Source: Lachnospiraceae bacterium AC2029
GTDB lineage: Bacteria > Bacillota > Clostridia > Lachnospirales > Lachnospiraceae
DNA length: 64,000 bases
Assembly: GCA_000703065.1 (NCBI GenBank)
Contig: JNLK01000001.1
Location: forward strand, 868,001 to 932,000
Direction: 5' to 3'
Positions within the stretch are counted from its first letter, which is position 1, and every line of letters begins with the position of its first letter. Of this stretch, positions 43,756-50,185 are shown in pieces. The position numbers were made by a program, and so were the translations under genes. The notes below the pieces were generated by a model. It did no database searches and was not told the DNA's origin. It saw only the letters and a list, made by a program, of their open reading frames with translations.

Positions 43756-44589
43756 TCATACGATCTGATCGCGGAATTCATCCTTCAGCTGAGCCAGGAT
43801 GATATCCATTCTCTTGTCGTAATCCGTCATGTCCTTATGCATCTTGTTGTACACGGCACGCTGGAGCATGGCGTATATGGTCATCTCACGGACATCGTCC
43901 TTGGAGTCGCCGATCTCCATCATGATGTCCTCGAAATACCGTTCGGACAGACCCATCTTGTGGACCTCATTCTTTAATGTGGTGATATCCTCCGTTACGG
44001 AGACCACATAGAAATATCCCTTCAGGGATTCCTGATTGCTGTTCAGGTCATAGGCCTTCAGGAAATACTTCTTCGCATCCTCGATGTCCAGGTTGTTGGC
44101 CGCTGCCACCGCCCGGTTGTGATATACATTTCCGAGGAATTCCTTATCCTGGATCTCCGCCTCCTGTTCGATGATGCCATCGTAGATAATGGAGGCCCGG
44201 ATGAACCTGCGGTATCCCAGATACCCGTCGGCCTTCAGCTTCTCCCGCTGCAGGGTGGACAGCTTCCGGTACTTCTGCCAGGCTGCCGCATAGGTCTTCA
44301 CCTCTTCCGGCGTATAATACTCTCCTGCATTCAGGATCTCCACCAGCAGATCCTGGGCGAAGGGAGTCTTGTTCGCAAGTCCCGTCAGCCGGTCCGCCAG
44401 CTGCGGCATGTCCAGCTCGTCGCGGATCCAGTTGAACAGCTTCTCCGAAAGCGCCGATTTGGAGATCAGCACGGTGTTGTTGTAAATGTAGAAGCAGAGC
44501 TCCTCGTAGGTGTAGATCTCCACCTTGGTATTAAGAAATGTGAAGGGAGTCTCCGCCTGCTTCGGTGAGCATACGATTATTTTTGCCAT
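43756..44589 (-). CDS. TPR-containing protein of the Hsp70-like/solenoid operon
   Basis: 277 residues, soluble, no signal peptide or transmembrane helix. A helical protein with at least one TPR-like unit near residues 170-205 (YHNRAVAAANNLDIEDAKKY). I do not recognise a named family. Its start overlaps the end of the Hsp70-like gene by 13 bases, in a different frame, so the two are translationally coupled. It probably binds the other two proteins of the operon. Confidence 0.8.
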   Translation of the reverse strand: MAKIIVCSPKQAETPFTFLNTKVEIYTYEELCFYIYNNTVLISKSALSEKLFNWIRDELDMPQLADRLTGLANKTPFAQDLLVEILNAGEYYTPEEVKTYAAAWQKYRKLSTLQREKLKADGYLGYRRFIRASIIYDGIIEQEAEIQDKEFLGNVYHNRAVAAANNLDIEDAKKYFLKAYDLNSNQESLKGYFYVVSVTEDITTLKNEVHKMGLSERYFEDIMMEIGDSKDDVREMTIYAMLQRAVYNKMHKDMTDYDKRMDIILAQLKDEFRDQIV

Positions 44590-45842
44590 ACGATGGAAAA
44601 CTCCTTTCTGTAGACTTTGTTCGTCGTCGGGAAGAGTTTTCCGAAGCCGAGATCACGGATGATCACGGCACCGTCCGTGGGGTTCTCGAACTCCACCTCC
44701 AGGGACAGCTTCGTTGTCTTGTTCGGGCGTTTCGGGATCCCGTGGATCTTCACGACCTCCCGCTTCTCCTCCTCGGTGTGCCGGCTGCGGTACACCAGGG
44801 TGATGGTATCCGTATCATCCAGGATCACGTGGATCTTACCCCGAATGTTATACCACTGCTTACCGCCGTTGACAATAGGCACGAAGGTATCCTTCTCGTC
44901 GTCCAGGGAGATGCCCACGTCAAAGAGGACATTTTCCTTGGTCTCCACGAAGAACTGGTCATAGAAGGCCTTATACTCTCCGCCCACGGCCCGGTAGCAG
45001 GCTCCCTTGGTGTAGATATTCTGACCCACGAAGACTCTCCGCCCCTGGCAGAGGACGTTCGTGGACTTCTTCATCCATTTGTTCGTGAAGCCGACGCCCG
45101 TCAGATAAACCGACGAAATGTACGCCTTCTTCATCTCGTAGTCCGCGATCTTCGCGAAATCCACATCCATCTGATAGGTATCATTTCCGTAATTGCCGAG
45201 GGACATCTGCGAGGAATAGTCCTCATGTGTCACCGTCACCAGCTTGGGCGTTTTGTTCCTGGAAATGTCGATGCGGTAGTAATTCAGCCCGTCCGCATTA
45301 TAATCATACAGCGCCACGGAATTGATCCACAGCCCCTGCTCCTGATTGAAAATGTAGAACAGACCGCTGTCCAGGTGGCTTGTGATCTCGATGGCGGACT
45401 CCGGCACCTCCATCAGCTTGTAAAGCCCGGAAAGCAGCTGATAAATGTGGCTGCTGTACTCCGGTACGGAAATGACCAGCTTACGGATGGTGGCATCCTC
45501 GTAACGATAGAGGAAGGAGTCGATGTGAAGCTTCACCATTTTCACGAAAAGGTCCGGATAGGTGTACTCCTCTCCCTCCACGGTGATGACCTCGTCACTC
45601 TCCAGATTCTCGAAAATGCCGTCGATGATCACGCCGTCCTCGTTGAACCGCGCCTCGGAGGCTTCCCCGCCCACATACCAGTGGCCGGTCTCCGTGCTGT
45701 GGAACAGGATGTTCGGCATGAGATAGGTCTCTTTGTTATTCAATTGGCTGACGGATTCGGGCTCACGTGTGATGTCGTTATAGTACGACAGCTGTGTAAA
45801 GTCCGAACAAAGATCCATTCCGATGTAAAATGCGTCTGCCAT
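44577..45842 (-). CDS. Hsp70/actin-like (ASKHA) protein, DUF5716-like
   Basis: 421 residues, cytoplasmic. The order of segments parallels DnaK: FYIGMDLCSDFTQLSYYN at 5-22 (phosphate 1), WYVGGEASEARF near 55-66, KLVISVPEYSSHIYQLLSGL at 121-140 (DnaK VITVPAYF), IEITSHLDSGLFYIF at 151-165 (DnaK INEPTAAAL), SVALYDYNADGLNYYRI at 175-191 (phosphate 2) and VYLTGVGFTNKWM (adenosine). The C-terminus is beta-rich, like a substrate-binding domain. The glycine-rich ATP loops are degenerate, so ATP use is uncertain. From memory it fits DUF5716. Confidence 0.75.
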   Translation of the reverse strand: MADAFYIGMDLCSDFTQLSYYNDITREPESVSQLNNKETYLMPNILFHSTETGHWYVGGEASEARFNEDGVIIDGIFENLESDEVITVEGEEYTYPDLFVKMVKLHIDSFLYRYEDATIRKLVISVPEYSSHIYQLLSGLYKLMEVPESAIEITSHLDSGLFYIFNQEQGLWINSVALYDYNADGLNYYRIDISRNKTPKLVTVTHEDYSSQMSLGNYGNDTYQMDVDFAKIADYEMKKAYISSVYLTGVGFTNKWMKKSTNVLCQGRRVFVGQNIYTKGACYRAVGGEYKAFYDQFFVETKENVLFDVGISLDDEKDTFVPIVNGGKQWYNIRGKIHVILDDTDTITLVYRSRHTEEEKREVVKIHGIPKRPNKTTKLSLEVEFENPTDGAVIIRDLGFGKLFPTTNKVYRKEFSIVWQK

Positions 45843-45897
45843 AATTTCATTCCTCTGTGTTTTGTATCATCCAACGCGCTGATAGACGAAGGTCATA

Positions 45898-45924
45898 AGA
45901 TTCTTCGCTTCGCTCAGAATGACA
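45898..45924. repeat. REP-like element, AGATTCTTCG family
   Basis: AGATTCTTCGCTTCGCTCAG, then AATGACA, upstream of the tandem array in the DUF5716/DUF5717 gap. It is an imperfect palindrome of the same family as 38280 and 43689. Confidence 0.6.
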
Positions 45925-46116
45925 TATTCTGTCATCCTGAGGGCGCATGACATATTCTGTCATCCTGAGGGCGCATGACATATTCTGTCATCCTGAGGGC
46001 GCATGACATATTCTGTCATCCTGAGGGCGCATGACATATTCTGTCATCCTGAGGGCGCATGACATATTCTGTCATCCTGAGGGCGCATGACATATTCTGT
46101 CATCCTGAGGGCGCAC
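45921..46116. repeat. Tandem array, 7 x 28 bp
   Basis: Seven units beginning GACATATTCTGTCATCCTGA, at 45921, 45949, 45977, 46005, 46033, 46061 and 46089, each exactly 28 bp. The first six end in GGGCGCAT; the last ends GGGCGCAC and continues into the REP-like element that reaches the stop codon of the next gene. The unit contains one arm of that element. There are no spacers, so this is not CRISPR. Confidence 0.95.
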
Positions 46117-46130
46117 GCCCGAAGGATCTT
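46098..46130. repeat. REP-like element overlapping the solenoid gene stop
   Basis: TGTCATCCTGAGGGCGC and GCCCGAAGGATCTTA form an imperfect palindrome that includes part of the TAA stop of the solenoid gene (minus strand 46131-46129). It is probably the seed from which the 28-bp array expanded. Confidence 0.6.
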
Positions 46131-49100
46131 ACAACAATGTCAGGTTCTCCTCGAACAGGTGGATCGTATTGATATAGATATCCAGATCCTCAAGCAGCTC
46201 CCGGTCCTTCCGCATCTCCTGCTTTACCAGCATGCTGTTGATCATCTCGAAGCGGTTCAGATCCTGCTTGTTGTAGGACTTCTTCTTCAGAACCTCGCTC
46301 TCCACGATCTGTGCATTTCCCTCCGGATCGTCCTCGATGCTGTAGACCAGCCGCTCGCCGTGGAACACCACGAACTCCATCACGTAAAGGCCGCTGACCA
46401 CTTCCTCCATCCGGTGCACCTTCGTATGCTCTCTGGCGCGGGTGCCCGTTCCGGTGCTGTACCGTACAAAGACCTGTCTCCGGTTCTCGGACTTGTAGAT
46501 CAGGTAGGTCTTCAGGAACACATCCTGAGGCAGCTCCAGGAAGGAGACAAAGCTCTTGTAGAAGGGAAGGATCTTGCCTGCATCCACGAAGCGGAGTGCC
46601 GTCTCGGAGATCCATTTCTTCTGTTCGTTCGTATATCTCTCCAGACGGCTGAAGTACAGCAGCAGCGCCATGGATGAGATCTCATCGTCGATATTGCCCT
46701 TCATGATCTCGGAATACAGCGCCTCGAAAATGTAGTTCGGAACCTGCATATCCCGGATCAGATAGTTATGGGCAGCCAGCCGCAGGAAGGCCTTGACCAC
46801 CAGTCCTCTGCTGCGTCCTCCGTAATAGGTTGCGAAAACATCGTAGATATACTCCAGATGCTCTCCGGCAAACATCATCTGAGCCAGAGTGTTCTCCGCC
46901 AGGGAGCCCACATCGGCCACACGGTCCTTTGCCAGCTTGAAGAGTCCGGCCAGCTCATCGATGGAGCCGTTGAAATTCATGGCCATGTAGGTCAGAATGT
47001 TCGGATTGACCGTTCCCGTCTTGTACAGGTTCAGGCAGATGGACATCAGGTCCTCGTTCAGGAAGCCCTCAGAATCCTGTACACCATAGTCGGCAAGGCG
47101 GTACAGCTCCCGCACATCCAGCTCGTTAAAGCCGTACAGCTTTACCGCCTGGAATGCCTTGTCGAAAAGGTTCATATCGATCAGATAGGTAATGATGGTC
47201 CGGGCATTTGCGTGGGTCAGATACTCGATATCCAACCGGCGCAGATACTTCACCAGCACGTCCGTATCCAGATTCTCATGGTAATACTCGATGATCTCCA
47301 GGCAGGCGGACTGCTTGTAGTCATCCGAGATCTCCTCGCAGTTGATGATCTCCCGCGCCGCATTTACCTCACGGGCGTTCTTGTAGGTGAATTCCCCGAT
47401 GCTCTCGTAGTTGTAGAGCAGCACACGGTAATCCCTGGGGCTGTACTCCCGGCAGATGGGGATGTACGCCTTCTCGTCCACGATCCGCTCGAAGTGATAG
47501 GGGATGGATCCCGCATAGCGGTTGCCGTCCTTATCCTCGAAAATGATGGACGCATTGTCCGACAGGATCTCCACGTAAGCCTCGCCGTCATCCAGCGGTA
47601 CGTGCTGCACACTGGAAAGCTCTCCGTGGCTGACGATCACGGCCCGGATATTCTTGTTGTAGCACACCAGCTTCCGGCGGAAGATGATATTGATCAGCTT
47701 GCCGGCAAAAAGGGAGCTTACGGATTCCGGCTCCAGGAACTCATCATAGATCACGGTCAGGTCGTCATTGACCTTGCCCTTCATGATCATGCTCTCCATG
47801 AAATCCTCCATGGTGGGCGCATATTCATGATAGATCTTCATATGCTCGGACTTGTTGAAGATCACATTTGCATAGAGATATGCAAGCTCGTCCTCGTTCA
47901 GCGTGTTCTTGTAATTCAGATACATCAGCACAGAGGGCGGGATCAGCTCGTAGTGAGTCCTGTCCATACTGCGGATGTAGCACTCGTTCAGGCCGATGAA
48001 CTTAAGGGACCGGAGAACCGCTGCCTTGTAGAACCGGTGGTATCTCTGATCCAGCATATTTGCGGAGATCAGCATGGAACAGATGGAGCCCAGAACCTCC
48101 AGGTTCTCATTCTCCTTCTTCAGGAGACGCTCCTCTTCCTCCGCACGGATGGTCTCGTCAAACTTATCGTCGAAGGACTGGCGGACCTTCCTGTCCAGCT
48201 GCTCCTCCTCCCGGTCATAGATCTCACCCTCGCTGGAAAGCCGCAGGGGATCCTCGGGATCATTGATGCTGAAGCCCTCCTTCTCCGCCTCGTCGGTCTC
48301 TTCCTCTTCATCCTCATCAAATCCCGTGAAAATGAAATCGTCCTCACCGGCAAAGGAAGGCTGTTCTTCCTCGTCGGTCTCCTTTTCGGAAAGAGACTCC
48401 TCCGTCTTCCGGTTTTCGCGCTTCCGGCGTTCTCTCCTCAGCTCTTCATCGTTCTTATCGTAAATGGAACGGAGCAGGTCAAAGATCTGCTTGTTGAACT
48501 CCTTGTTCCGTCCCGCCAGCTTCACGAACTCATTCAGTACGTCATCGGAAATGTACTCATGACGGAGGCCCCATTTGATGGTTGTGATCTCAAAGGGAGT
48601 CAGTCTCTTCAGCATGAGCGGATTTGCGTTCAGGATATCACAGAGCTCGAAGTAGATGATCGGGCTGTTCTCGCCCTCTTCGTACATCTCCGTCAGTTCC
48701 CGGTAAAGCGCGCCCTTATCCTCGTTGTAGACCGGATCCACAAAGAGCAGCAGCCAGAAGAAGAACATCTTCGGCTCCTGGGTGCGGTAATTCCGGCGGA
48801 TCATGTTCGCCGTTTTCTCGATGGTCTCCTCATCCCTGAGCATCATGGCCTTCAGGTATTCGTAGAAGCACTTCTCCTGATTGGTCATCAGGCTGCGGTC
48901 CACATCCGCCTCGATCCGGAGGAACTCCTGCTCCACCTTCGCATAGTCCCCTTTCAGGATGTTCATGTGCATGACGGCCAGCCGGTACATATCCTCCTCC
49001 GGCTCCATTTCCATCAGCACACGCAATGCCTCCAGGGTATCCGCCACATACTCCTCCAGCCCGATCCGGTCCATACGGAAATCCAGATAGGCCTGGGTGA

Positions 49101-50034
49101 GATTGATCTTGCACTGCTTGTATTCCTGTTCCTTCAGACGGTTTTCCTGATTCACCCGCCGCTGCTGCGGCTTGGAAAGGTGAATGTCGATCTCGATCTT
49201 CTGGTAGATATTCTCAATGATCAGCTTTCCGCTGTTCTCTCCGTCCGGCACATGCTCCGGCGAGATGTACACCTGCAGATCGCAGGAATTCGCCGTAAAG
49301 TCGGAGGAGGCAAGGATCTTCTTCGCCGGAATGATGAACTCCGCATTGCTTCGGATCTCGGACCGTGTGTAGCCCCAGGTGTTCTTCGTCAGTCCGATGG
49401 TGATACTCTCCGTCTCCGCCGGCATCACCAGATCCAGCTTGGCCTTGTCGGTGGACAGGGTCACGGTACGTTTCTTATGCACAAGAACCAGGAACTCCTC
49501 CATGGCCTGATCCACGGAATGACTGTCCAGAAGACTCTCGTAGATCAGCTTCAGATGGGGTTCCCTGTTGATAAATGTACGTCGGAAGTCATCGCTCATG
49601 AACAGACGGGCGGCCTCGTTCCAGTTCCGCTCCGCCAGAGCAGCGAATTTGAAAAGATCATCGATCCGCTCGCTCCCGCAGGTAACGCAGGGCGGAACGA
49701 TGCTGATATCGTAGGGCAGACGGAACTCTCCTCCGTCGGTGATCACATTGATGTGTCCGCGGAAGTTCTGTCCTGCCTCCAGGCAGGTTGCGTCAAAGGA
49801 ATAACGCACCTCGAATCGGCGGCTGATGAAGCTGTGGCTCTCAAAGCGGAGCAGGTATCGGCTGTCATAGACCATACCCTTGATCGGATACTTATTCCGG
49901 CTTTCCACCGAGAAGGAGCCCTCGTATACGGTGCCTGCCTCGATGTTCAGTTTGAAGTTTTGCTTTGAAATGTGTACGTCCGGCCGGTCGATCCGAAATT
50001 CGCCCTTCGCGTACTGCTCCACAATCGCCTTCAT
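46129..50034 (-). CDS. Giant Ig-like/alpha-solenoid protein, DUF5717-like
   Basis: 1301 residues, no signal peptide or transmembrane helix. The N-terminal 300 residues are beta-rich, with two repeated Ig-like segments (TVYEGSFSVESRNKYPIKG; CLEAGQNFRGHINVITDGGE). From about 300 on it is mostly helical and TPR-like (QEKCFYEYLKAMMLRDEETI). An acidic disordered linker lies at about 530-600 (ETDEEEQPSFAGEDDF). From memory this resembles DUF5717. The ATG at 50034 has GGAGAGGGTTGC before it; the longer frame adds nothing like the family. It is first in the operon with the Hsp70-like and TPR genes. Confidence 0.85.
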   Translation of the reverse strand: MKAIVEQYAKGEFRIDRPDVHISKQNFKLNIEAGTVYEGSFSVESRNKYPIKGMVYDSRYLLRFESHSFISRRFEVRYSFDATCLEAGQNFRGHINVITDGGEFRLPYDISIVPPCVTCGSERIDDLFKFAALAERNWNEAARLFMSDDFRRTFINREPHLKLIYESLLDSHSVDQAMEEFLVLVHKKRTVTLSTDKAKLDLVMPAETESITIGLTKNTWGYTRSEIRSNAEFIIPAKKILASSDFTANSCDLQVYISPEHVPDGENSGKLIIENIYQKIEIDIHLSKPQQRRVNQENRLKEQEYKQCKINLTQAYLDFRMDRIGLEEYVADTLEALRVLMEMEPEEDMYRLAVMHMNILKGDYAKVEQEFLRIEADVDRSLMTNQEKCFYEYLKAMMLRDEETIEKTANMIRRNYRTQEPKMFFFWLLLFVDPVYNEDKGALYRELTEMYEEGENSPIIYFELCDILNANPLMLKRLTPFEITTIKWGLRHEYISDDVLNEFVKLAGRNKEFNKQIFDLLRSIYDKNDEELRRERRKRENRKTEESLSEKETDEEEQPSFAGEDDFIFTGFDEDEEEETDEAEKEGFSINDPEDPLRLSSEGEIYDREEEQLDRKVRQSFDDKFDETIRAEEEERLLKKENENLEVLGSICSMLISANMLDQRYHRFYKAAVLRSLKFIGLNECYIRSMDRTHYELIPPSVLMYLNYKNTLNEDELAYLYANVIFNKSEHMKIYHEYAPTMEDFMESMIMKGKVNDDLTVIYDEFLEPESVSSLFAGKLINIIFRRKLVCYNKNIRAVIVSHGELSSVQHVPLDDGEAYVEILSDNASIIFEDKDGNRYAGSIPYHFERIVDEKAYIPICREYSPRDYRVLLYNYESIGEFTYKNAREVNAAREIINCEEISDDYKQSACLEIIEYYHENLDTDVLVKYLRRLDIEYLTHANARTIITYLIDMNLFDKAFQAVKLYGFNELDVRELYRLADYGVQDSEGFLNEDLMSICLNLYKTGTVNPNILTYMAMNFNGSIDELAGLFKLAKDRVADVGSLAENTLAQMMFAGEHLEYIYDVFATYYGGRSRGLVVKAFLRLAAHNYLIRDMQVPNYIFEALYSEIMKGNIDDEISSMALLLYFSRLERYTNEQKKWISETALRFVDAGKILPFYKSFVSFLELPQDVFLKTYLIYKSENRRQVFVRYSTGTGTRAREHTKVHRMEEVVSGLYVMEFVVFHGERLVYSIEDDPEGNAQIVESEVLKKKSYNKQDLNRFEMINSMLVKQEMRKDRELLEDLDIYINTIHLFEENLTLL

Positions 50035-50185
50035 GCAACCCTCTCCGATATAAAAAACTTGCGAATCCCACTCTAAATGTTGTAGAATAGAATCAGCGTG
50101 TAATAAAAACATACAAAATCAACTTATTATAGCAGATTCGGTCATGTTTTGAAAGTCCAAATATCTACACGCCGGAGGTTTCGGA

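Follow-up and report, generated by a model that had tools for sequence, protein, structure and literature searches.

Which role could be played by three neighbouring minus-strand genes that encode a DUF5717 protein (1301 aa), a DUF5716 protein (421 aa) and a TPR-like protein (277 aa)? The question is raised by a stretch of 64,000 nucleotides from Lachnospiraceae bacterium AC2029, termed the window in the following. The Pfam descriptions of the two DUF families, as shown, give no function, and no paper on DUF5716, DUF5717 or the operon was found in the open-access literature searched. The word DUF5716 occurs once in PMC8115291, a mismatch-repair paper by its title, and the accessible part of PMC11019930 does not mention the DUF5716/DUF5717 family.

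The locus and its gene products

A sequence-only reading of the window had described the trio at the coordinates listed below, with a 13-base overlap of the TPR-like and DUF5716 genes, and the open reading frames confirm this arrangement. The family names that it had given agree with the Pfam assignments to PF18984/PF18983 (DUF5717) and PF18980 (DUF5716).

46129..50034, minus strand: DUF5717 gene, putative scaffold, 1301 aa; N-terminal domains of Ig/ASH type, then an alpha-solenoid into which an acidic stretch is inserted, and a beta domain at the C-terminus (Pfam, homologue model, Foldseek)
49162..50034, minus strand: two predicted Ig/ASH-like beta domains of DUF5717, separated by a short helical segment (aa 1-291; placed by way of the L116 model and alignment A4)
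46519..49137, minus strand: predicted alpha-solenoid of DUF5717 (aa about 300-1172), with an acidic linker at aa about 540-640 and, at aa 786-850, a small beta domain as interruptions (L116 model)
45919..46115, no strand: 28-bp unit repeated perfectly in tandem, seven copies, separating the DUF5717 and DUF5716 genes
44577..45842, minus strand: DUF5716 gene, degenerate Hsp70, 421 aa (Pfam, PDB profile search, hhalign, homologue model, Foldseek, residue alignment)
44958..45836, minus strand: part of DUF5716 corresponding to the Hsp70 nucleotide-binding domain (aa 3-295), without subdomain IIB and catalytic Lys/Glu (alignment)
44595..44957, minus strand: part of DUF5716 resembling the Hsp70 substrate-binding domain beta (aa 296-416), without alpha lid (hhalign, homologue model)
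43756..44589, minus strand: gene of the TPR-like protein (277 aa), sharing 13 bases with the DUF5716 gene (ORF, Pfam, alignment with the sister-family TPR protein)

The tandem copies probably do not belong to the system. For DUF5717, the ATG at 50034 was preferred as start over position 50112 in the mechanical list of open reading frames (1327 aa) because the homologue consensus begins like the 1301-aa reading. Both DUF proteins of the window are clear members of their families, DUF5717 with E-values of 1.5e-276 for PF18984 and 3.3e-64 for PF18983 (920 and 217 bits vs. cut-offs of 25) and DUF5716 with an E-value of 2.4e-95 for PF18980 (319 bits vs. a curated cut-off of 34.7). The N-terminal Ig-like segments and the solenoid that had been proposed for DUF5717 reappear in a model of its homologue from L116 (pLDDT 86.8, pTM 0.60) and in the corresponding Foldseek search, which retrieved chains of the ciliary central pair and SPD-2 as well as Ski3/Ctr9/Naa15-type chains; the acidic linker proposed alongside them could also be placed. 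Judged from this model, DUF5717 is composed of Ig/ASH-like domains on an alpha-solenoid.

The best Pfam TPR match of the TPR-like protein (E 0.0033, 17.9 bits) stays below the cut-off of 27, whereas its sister-family ortholog from L193 passes with 89 bits. The window protein aligns with this ortholog along its own length save one internal gap, and is shorter than the TPR protein of the sister families (~387 aa). Natural DUF5716-TPR fusions occur in five of the 40 regions fetched, which makes a complex of these two proteins likely. All three genes are under purifying selection (pS 0.47-0.58 vs. pN 0.035-0.052, window vs. L037), and none of the three proteins contains a 19-residue stretch above the hydropathy threshold used, in line with the lack of signal peptides noted before.

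Relation of DUF5716 to Hsp70

When a DUF5716 profile was compared with PDB sequences, six were found at E<=0.002, all of them DnaK (best 2.2e-7); the single window sequence reached only E 0.34, and PF00012 matched none of the 31 members of alignment A1 at E<=1. In a one-to-one comparison by hhalign, DUF5716 is colinear with residues 3-468 of the DnaK from the same genome (E 1e-6), and all three segments that the sequence-only reading had set against DnaK segments are paired in just this way. The C-terminal half of the DnaK match, corresponding to SBD-beta, is insignificant in the PDB search when taken alone (domain E 25 or worse). The structural models represent the homologue L116, which is 28% identical to the DUF5716 of the window, and not the window proteins themselves. 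The L116 DUF5716-TPR fusion was modelled with a pLDDT of 92.2 from alignment A5, which replaced A3, where TPR rows had been set on the Hsp70 part; its TPR half rests on five sequences. Foldseek with this model yielded 248 PDB matches at E<=0.001 (best E 9.7e-17). Among the best 50 of the 248, 47 are Hsp70-family proteins according to their titles; the other three belong to the ciliary central pair and to RAC, complexes that contain an Hsp70. An ASKHA fold, as had been predicted for the 421-residue protein, is thereby recovered in the homologue, and the combination of Hsp70 nucleotide-binding domain and SBD-beta emerges from Foldseek on L116 and from hhalign with DnaK alike. Sequence comparisons and models together show that DUF5716 is a degenerate Hsp70 by descent.

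The degeneration concerns the ATPase above all. At the positions of Lys70 and Glu171 (E. coli numbering), the catalytic residues of Hsp70, neither Lys nor Glu occurs in any of 75 DUF5716 rows (two rows are gapped at 70; the window protein has F and H), while Lys and Glu are present in all 48 rows of the Hsp70s a, c and d introduced below. The phosphate loops of Hsp70 (DLGTT, DxGGGT) are not intact in DUF5716, in agreement with the degenerate loops described in the sequence-only reading, and the phosphate-2 position is Thr in a single row out of 75. DUF5716 has 40-59 residues across the span of residues 176-300 of the DnaK from the window's genome, vs. 127-161 in the four Hsp70s of L193. Subdomain IIB, the GrpE-binding lobe, is missing, with occupancies of 0.06, 0 and 0 over own-DnaK residues 201-260, and a Pfam scan of the trio gave no GrpE or J-domain match. 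On the other hand, Asp8 is kept in 67/75 and the first adenine-site Gly in 74/75 rows, so that nucleotide could still bind.

Distribution, a fourth gene and the operon of sister families

Within the window's family, DUF5716 is present in 145, the TPR protein in 144 and DUF5717 in 147 of 150 genomes, mostly in one copy and without patchiness, and the genes are usually linked (trio linkage in 39/40 fetched regions). It had been held that genomes with unlinked genes would count against a functional trio. A few such exceptions exist, i.e., G020 with DUF5716 and no DUF5717 or TPR match in a genome that is 67% complete, G039 with DUF5717 and G084 with the TPR gene on a separate contig, and G146 with a full DUF5717 and no match for the other two; linkage was upheld otherwise, and G029 and G091 carry none of the three genes. 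The expectation of a conserved trio across Firmicutes proved correct for linkage but not for phylum-wide spread, as DUF5716 was detected in 5 of 398 genomes of the phylum, all within the window's family. More distant relatives occur elsewhere in the order, in families other than that of the window, and the system was not seen outside this order in the samples searched. Since it is kept by nearly all sampled members of the family, a dominant one among gut bacteria, and is unseen outside the order, it should serve a lineage-specific cell-biological role.

Neighbouring genes differ between genomes and offer no functional clue, with the exception of a fourth gene for a membrane coiled-coil protein with a hydrophobic hairpin and without Pfam family. 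This neighbour of the trio, new here, is found in 64/150 family genomes, beside the TPR gene in all 64, and was labelled in 10 of 29 sister loci, where some regions end soon after the TPR gene; sequence matches connect the fourth genes of both groups (best 8.7e-69). The proposed cytoplasmic complex does not hold throughout, because the hairpin gene beside the trio in these 64 genomes implies a system that is not purely cytoplasmic everywhere. The genome of the window lacks the fourth gene, so tethering by its product cannot apply there.

In the sister families, the operon comprises genes for DUF5717, Hsp70a, a GrpE-domain protein (m1), Hsp70b, Hsp70c, Hsp70d-VWA, the TPR protein and sometimes the coiled-coil protein, with the core order Ha-m1-Hb-Hc-Hd in 27/29 loci, a GrpE domain in 16/17 m1 and VWA in 16/16 Hd proteins. 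ATPase motifs are retained in Hsp70 a, c and d and not in b, which matches DUF5716_C in 14/16 and HSP70 in 13/16 cases. In the phylogenetic tree a 100/100 branch separates a, c, d and the genomes' own Hsp70s from a group in which DUF5716 is nested inside b. Hsp70b is paraphyletic, with DUF5716 inside, in 98% of bootstrap trees, the nesting being carried by one branch (96/80) in a tree where several rows are long and eight deviate in composition. From this placement, the matching fourth genes and shared neighbours, Hsp70b is taken as the ortholog of DUF5716; this link and the larger sister operon are new here. The aminotransferase upstream in the window has matches at E<=2e-67 in 8/20 sister regions, and valS lies downstream in 3/29 sister loci. 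GrpE-domain chimeras from the window's own genome were rejected as family-wide partners, as the matches listed from other genomes mainly cover the GrpE end and are nearly all GrpE-sized frames; hhalign of such a chimera with DUF5716 gave no match (E 0.33).

Explanations for the trio and comparison with known systems

We consider it probable that the trio is what reduction has left of a multi-Hsp70 machine specific to the order, and that it has been retained as a pseudo-Hsp70 scaffold that does not cycle. The operon of the sister families encodes DUF5717, three Hsp70s with preserved ATPase motifs, one of them with VWA, a GrpE-domain protein, the pseudo-Hsp70 b and the TPR protein, in some cases with the membrane coiled-coil protein; the window's family would have kept DUF5717, the pseudo-Hsp70 (DUF5716) and the TPR protein, and about two-fifths of the sampled genomes also have the membrane protein. 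We infer reduction as the direction of change and a physical complex in which DUF5716, most likely no longer cycling ATP, would bind the TPR protein and sit on the DUF5717 solenoid as an immobile module for structure and docking, and which would be tethered to the membrane wherever the fourth gene is present. For the process served we can offer no more than a guess, namely protein assembly associated with the membrane or envelope. The more far-reaching proposal of an undescribed order-specific Hsp70 super-machine, with four ordered paralogues (one pseudo-Hsp70, one with VWA), a GrpE-domain protein as its dedicated exchange factor, a giant scaffold of Ig and alpha-solenoid type, a TPR protein as adaptor and a coiled-coil protein as membrane anchor, from which the window's family would have lost every ATPase while keeping a near-universal core complex as structural scaffold, appears to us about as apt to be right as wrong.

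The direction could also be the reverse, with an ancestral three-gene form to which three active Hsp70s and the GrpE-domain gene were added later in the sister families. The trio is indeed the part common to both groups, and Hsp70b is degenerate already within the full operon. We judge this rather improbable, given the nesting of DUF5716 inside a paraphyletic b and the shorter TPR protein of the window's family. Also improbable is an active, if unusual, DUF5716 chaperone that would bind ATP in a remodelled pocket and hold clients with its beta domain, assisted by DUF5717 and the TPR protein as co-chaperones. Conservation of Asp8 and the adenine-site Gly, the retained SBD-beta-like domain and purifying selection would fit, but the catalytic Lys and Glu are missing from all 75 rows, phosphate-2 Thr is nearly so, IIB is gone and the trio is without GrpE or J-domain match. 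Of the two functions that the sequence-only reading had left side by side, a scaffold is the best reading, and ATP-driven chaperone action by DUF5716 itself is unlikely.

An anti-phage or conflict system, akin to published operons with Hsp70/GrpE or VWA, is very improbable. Themes such as Hsp70, GrpE, beta-repeats or TPR are shared with one GAP1-N2 theme in the accessible part of PMC7159879, the TPR protein weakly matches NCBIfam GapS6a (E 0.006, below cut-off), and three of six sister proteins have partial PADLOC matches, namely Hsp70c and Hsp70d (PDC-M61B, 8.7e-11 and 4.4e-7) and the TPR protein. Such a system is at odds with the near-universal, mostly single-copy and non-patchy occurrence in the family, and no GTPase was recognised in the Pfam scans run. 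Defence as the main reading was rejected, as the trio and the fourth gene gave no PADLOC match at E<=0.01. A phage or mobile origin was likewise rejected: DUF5716 had no match in plasmids, no relative was confirmed in viral contigs, and of four phage-collection records with DUF5717 the two examined are bacterial chromosome contigs, both carrying the trio and the fourth gene and one also valS.

The link between DUF5716 and Hsp70b of a multi-Hsp70 operon provides the two DUF families with a testable ancestry and mechanism. It also draws attention to two partners without own Pfam family, one being the membrane coiled-coil protein and the other the GrpE-domain protein in its long N-terminal part, and it yields a natural series that leads from a machine driven by ATP to a scaffold made of a pseudo-enzyme. 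With DnaK/Hsp70 (PF00012), DUF5716 shares the N-terminal start, the actin-like core, the adenine-site Gly and the SBD-beta region in the same order; it differs by lacking catalytic Lys/Glu, intact phosphate loops, subdomain IIB and the alpha lid. Atypical Hsp70s of the Hsp110/Sse1 type are among the Foldseek matches of the DUF5716 model (2qxl, 3d2e). Hsp110/Sse1 acts alongside canonical Hsp70 and is itself a modified Hsp70; it is larger and retains ATP binding, in contrast to DUF5716 without catalytic residues and IIB. The GAP1-N2 GTPase-centric systems, as far as described in the accessible part of PMC7159879, combine Hsp70 with GrpE, in a subset with a second Hsp70 without peptide-binding domain, and have a beta-repeat protein that carries a TPR or J domain; they have been inferred to act near the membrane. 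These systems are built on GTPases and GAP1, neither of which was recognised here in Pfam scans that covered the trio, eight of its neighbours in the window and the majority of genes in one sister operon, whereas the sister operon has four Hsp70s in fixed order and its reduced form is kept family-wide.

DUF5716 as a degenerate Hsp70

DUF5716 is a degenerate Hsp70. The likeness to DnaK noted in a sequence-only reading of the window was borne out by a profile search, by hhalign and by a structural model searched with Foldseek. The single window sequence matched DnaK only at E 0.34, whereas a profile of 31 members, run against all PDB sequences, had six matches at E<=0.002, all to DnaK (the best at 2.2e-7); up to E 10 there were two more, YlbL (0.79) and another DnaK (1.4). 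This match is carried by the N-terminal part; the C-terminal part is colinear but without significance alone. In hhalign, DUF5716 is colinear with DnaK from the window's own genome across DnaK residues 3-468, so that it has counterparts of the nucleotide-binding domain as well as of the substrate-binding domain's beta part. PF00012 finds none of the 31 profile members. The protein modelled was a homologue, the DUF5716-TPR fusion encoded at locus L116 (pLDDT 92.2, pTM 0.82), whose DUF5716 part shares 28% identity with the window protein. Among the Foldseek matches listed for this model, an Hsp70-family protein is named in 47 of 50 titles (best E 9.7e-17). The other three, 7sqc_Z0, 7n6g_6K and 7x3k_B, are chains from complexes containing an Hsp70.

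An alignment of 75 DUF5716 rows with DnaK was used to count residues, which are named here as in E. coli. Lys is absent from the Lys70 position in all 75 rows (two have a gap), Glu from the Glu171 position in all 75 (His in 46), and the phosphate-2 Thr is present in a single row. Rows that keep Asp8 number 67; for Asp194 the figure is 47 and for the first adenine-site Gly it is 74. Opposite residues 176-300 of the own DnaK, DUF5716 has 40-59 residues vs. 127-161 in the four Hsp70s of L193, a locus from another family of the order, Hsp70 b included; subdomain IIB, at which GrpE binds Hsp70, is therefore gone from DUF5716.

The gene trio, its partners and its distribution

The genes for DUF5717, DUF5716 and the TPR-like protein lie where the earlier reading had placed them, with conserved coding sequence at all three and a 13-base overlap of the latter two, as stated there; its DUF assignments agree with Pfam. 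In the window's TPR-like protein, the TPR repeat scores below the Pfam cut-off. For the DUF5717 gene, 50034 is the most likely start, because the homologue consensus begins there. DUF5717 and DUF5716 genes nearly abut in fetched regions holding both, unlike in the window with its repeat-filled gap:

45919-46115, seven perfect tandem copies of a 28-bp unit, separating the DUF5717 gene from the DUF5716 gene
45898-45924, 27-bp element adjoining these repeats

A model of the L116 DUF5717 homologue (pLDDT 86.8) begins with two beta domains, continues as a long solenoid that is interrupted midway by a small beta domain, and ends in a further beta domain; how these parts are placed relative to one another is unsure, given the pTM of 0.60. 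The Ig-like segments and solenoid proposed earlier would correspond to the N-terminal beta domains and the solenoid. Foldseek matches, all with low TM-scores, were to ciliary central-pair chains and an SPD-2 domain, a kind known as ASH/MSP, and to solenoid proteins from the Ski, Paf1/Ctr9 and Naa15 complexes.

Among 150 genomes of the Lachnospiraceae, DUF5716 occurs in 145, the TPR gene in 144 and DUF5717 in 147. DUF5716 was found in five of 398 genomes of the phylum, all five within this family, and in none of 14 control genomes. A mixed DUF5717 profile matched 16 of 391 genomes of the class, all in the family, just three genomes listed in that search coming from other families of the order. 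Among named relatives, DUF5716 of Eubacterium ruminantium ATCC 17233 is 77% identical to that of the window. The expected linkage holds in 39 of 40 regions, with DUF5717, DUF5716 and TPR in this order on one strand and the latter two fused into a single ORF in five of the 39; the regions were picked by DUF5716 position and non-randomly, suspected fusions and long contigs being preferred. Unlinked genes had been named as evidence against the operon; linkage is usual, and a few genomes are exceptions:

G020 (67% complete), DUF5716 alone
G039, DUF5717 on a separate contig
G084, TPR on a separate contig
G146 (68% complete), full-length DUF5717 without a DUF5716 or TPR match
G098 and G128, only fragments of DUF5717
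G029 and G091, none of the trio matched

In 11 of the 49 loci that were compared, the gene after TPR encodes a protein of about 400 residues. Its sequence reads as a coiled coil flanking a hydrophobic stretch (two hydropathy segments in five of eight proteins, a single merged stretch in three), and none of four proteins scanned gave a Pfam match above cut-off. It is present in 64 of the 150 family genomes, that of the window not among them, and in all 64 it is found 3' of the TPR match at a distance of 15-498 bases, measured in G092 from a short TPR fragment on the same contig.

Directly upstream of DUF5717, one region encodes a VTC-domain protein (L118:3834-4493, plus strand; PF09359, E 8.5e-8), with a cluster mate in L116; VTC domains are linked to polyphosphate. 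The unverified 'Bacteriophage sp.' records MT835486.1 and MT835988.1 (L234, L235) each contain the trio and the fourth gene, and one also valS; they look like bacterial chromosome contigs.

Related operons and Hsp70s

The DUF5716 profile matched 97 of 146 genomes of the order: by the match table, 15 in the family, 59 outside it with E<1e-14 and 23 weaker, the last probably plain DnaK. Of 29 regions examined, each from one of the 59, 27 have the order Ha, m1, Hb, Hc, Hd (Hsp70 a to d and a GrpE-domain protein, m1) after DUF5717, and two are partial. DUF5717 is split over two ORFs in 15 of the 29, the TPR gene comes next in 24 of the 27, and a coiled-coil gene, labelled in 10 of the 29, matches the fourth gene of the window's family (best 8.7e-69). 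A C-terminal GrpE domain was found in 16 of 17 m1 proteins scanned, a VWA domain in all 16 Hd proteins, and DUF5716_C and HSP70 matches in 14 and 13 of 16 Hb proteins. Phosphate-loop motifs are present in 16/16 each of Hsp70 a, c and d vs. 0/16 of b; no J-domain was matched among the proteins scanned. The aminotransferase upstream in the window has matches at E<=2e-67 in eight of 20 such regions, and valS was found in three of 29.

In a 57-row tree, in which five rows are flagged by the program as long and eight as unusual in composition, a 100/100 branch sets DUF5716 and b apart from Hsp70 a, c and d and from the window genome's own Hsp70s, and DUF5716 is nested inside b (96/80). The three intact Hsp70s of the window's genome fall outside the a, c and d groups, so that none of them is an ortholog of a, c or d. 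Other loci of this genome encode:

G000:C1:3654980-3656368 (L239:8481-9872, plus strand), long N-terminal part, then a C-terminal GrpE domain
G000:C1:771692-773074 (L240:9690-11261, minus strand), long N-terminal part, C-terminal GrpE domain and partial Hsp70 match (E 8e-6)
L242:6447-9518 (G000:C1 near 2507000), 1023-aa ORF carrying TPR repeats; its J-domain match is slightly under cut-off
L242:9502-11199, second intact Hsp70, adjoining the preceding ORF
L241:9009-11486 (G000:C1:1745008 on), 825-aa ORF with an Hsp70 domain; downstream, an AAA ATPase ORF and two ORFs without assignment

The two GrpE-domain proteins may be degenerate Hsp70-GrpE chimeras, because that of L240 has the partial Hsp70 match. 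The two have matches in 143 other family genomes, those listed covering mainly the GrpE end.

A probable scaffold without its chaperones

The window operon is without the GrpE-domain gene and the active Hsp70s of the related operon. The trio probably represents the scaffold part left from a former multi-Hsp70 machine. DUF5716 has retained its fold and lost its ATPase residues and the GrpE-contacting lobe; it is likely a fixed docking piece linking DUF5717 and TPR. That the three proteins form a complex is inferred, as are the cellular location and clients of that complex and the direction in which the operon changed. No published description of a DUF5716/DUF5717 operon was found in the open-access papers searched. 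The nearest published theme found is that of the GAP1-N2 systems in their Hsp70/GrpE variant, which has a GTPase core (PMC7159879).
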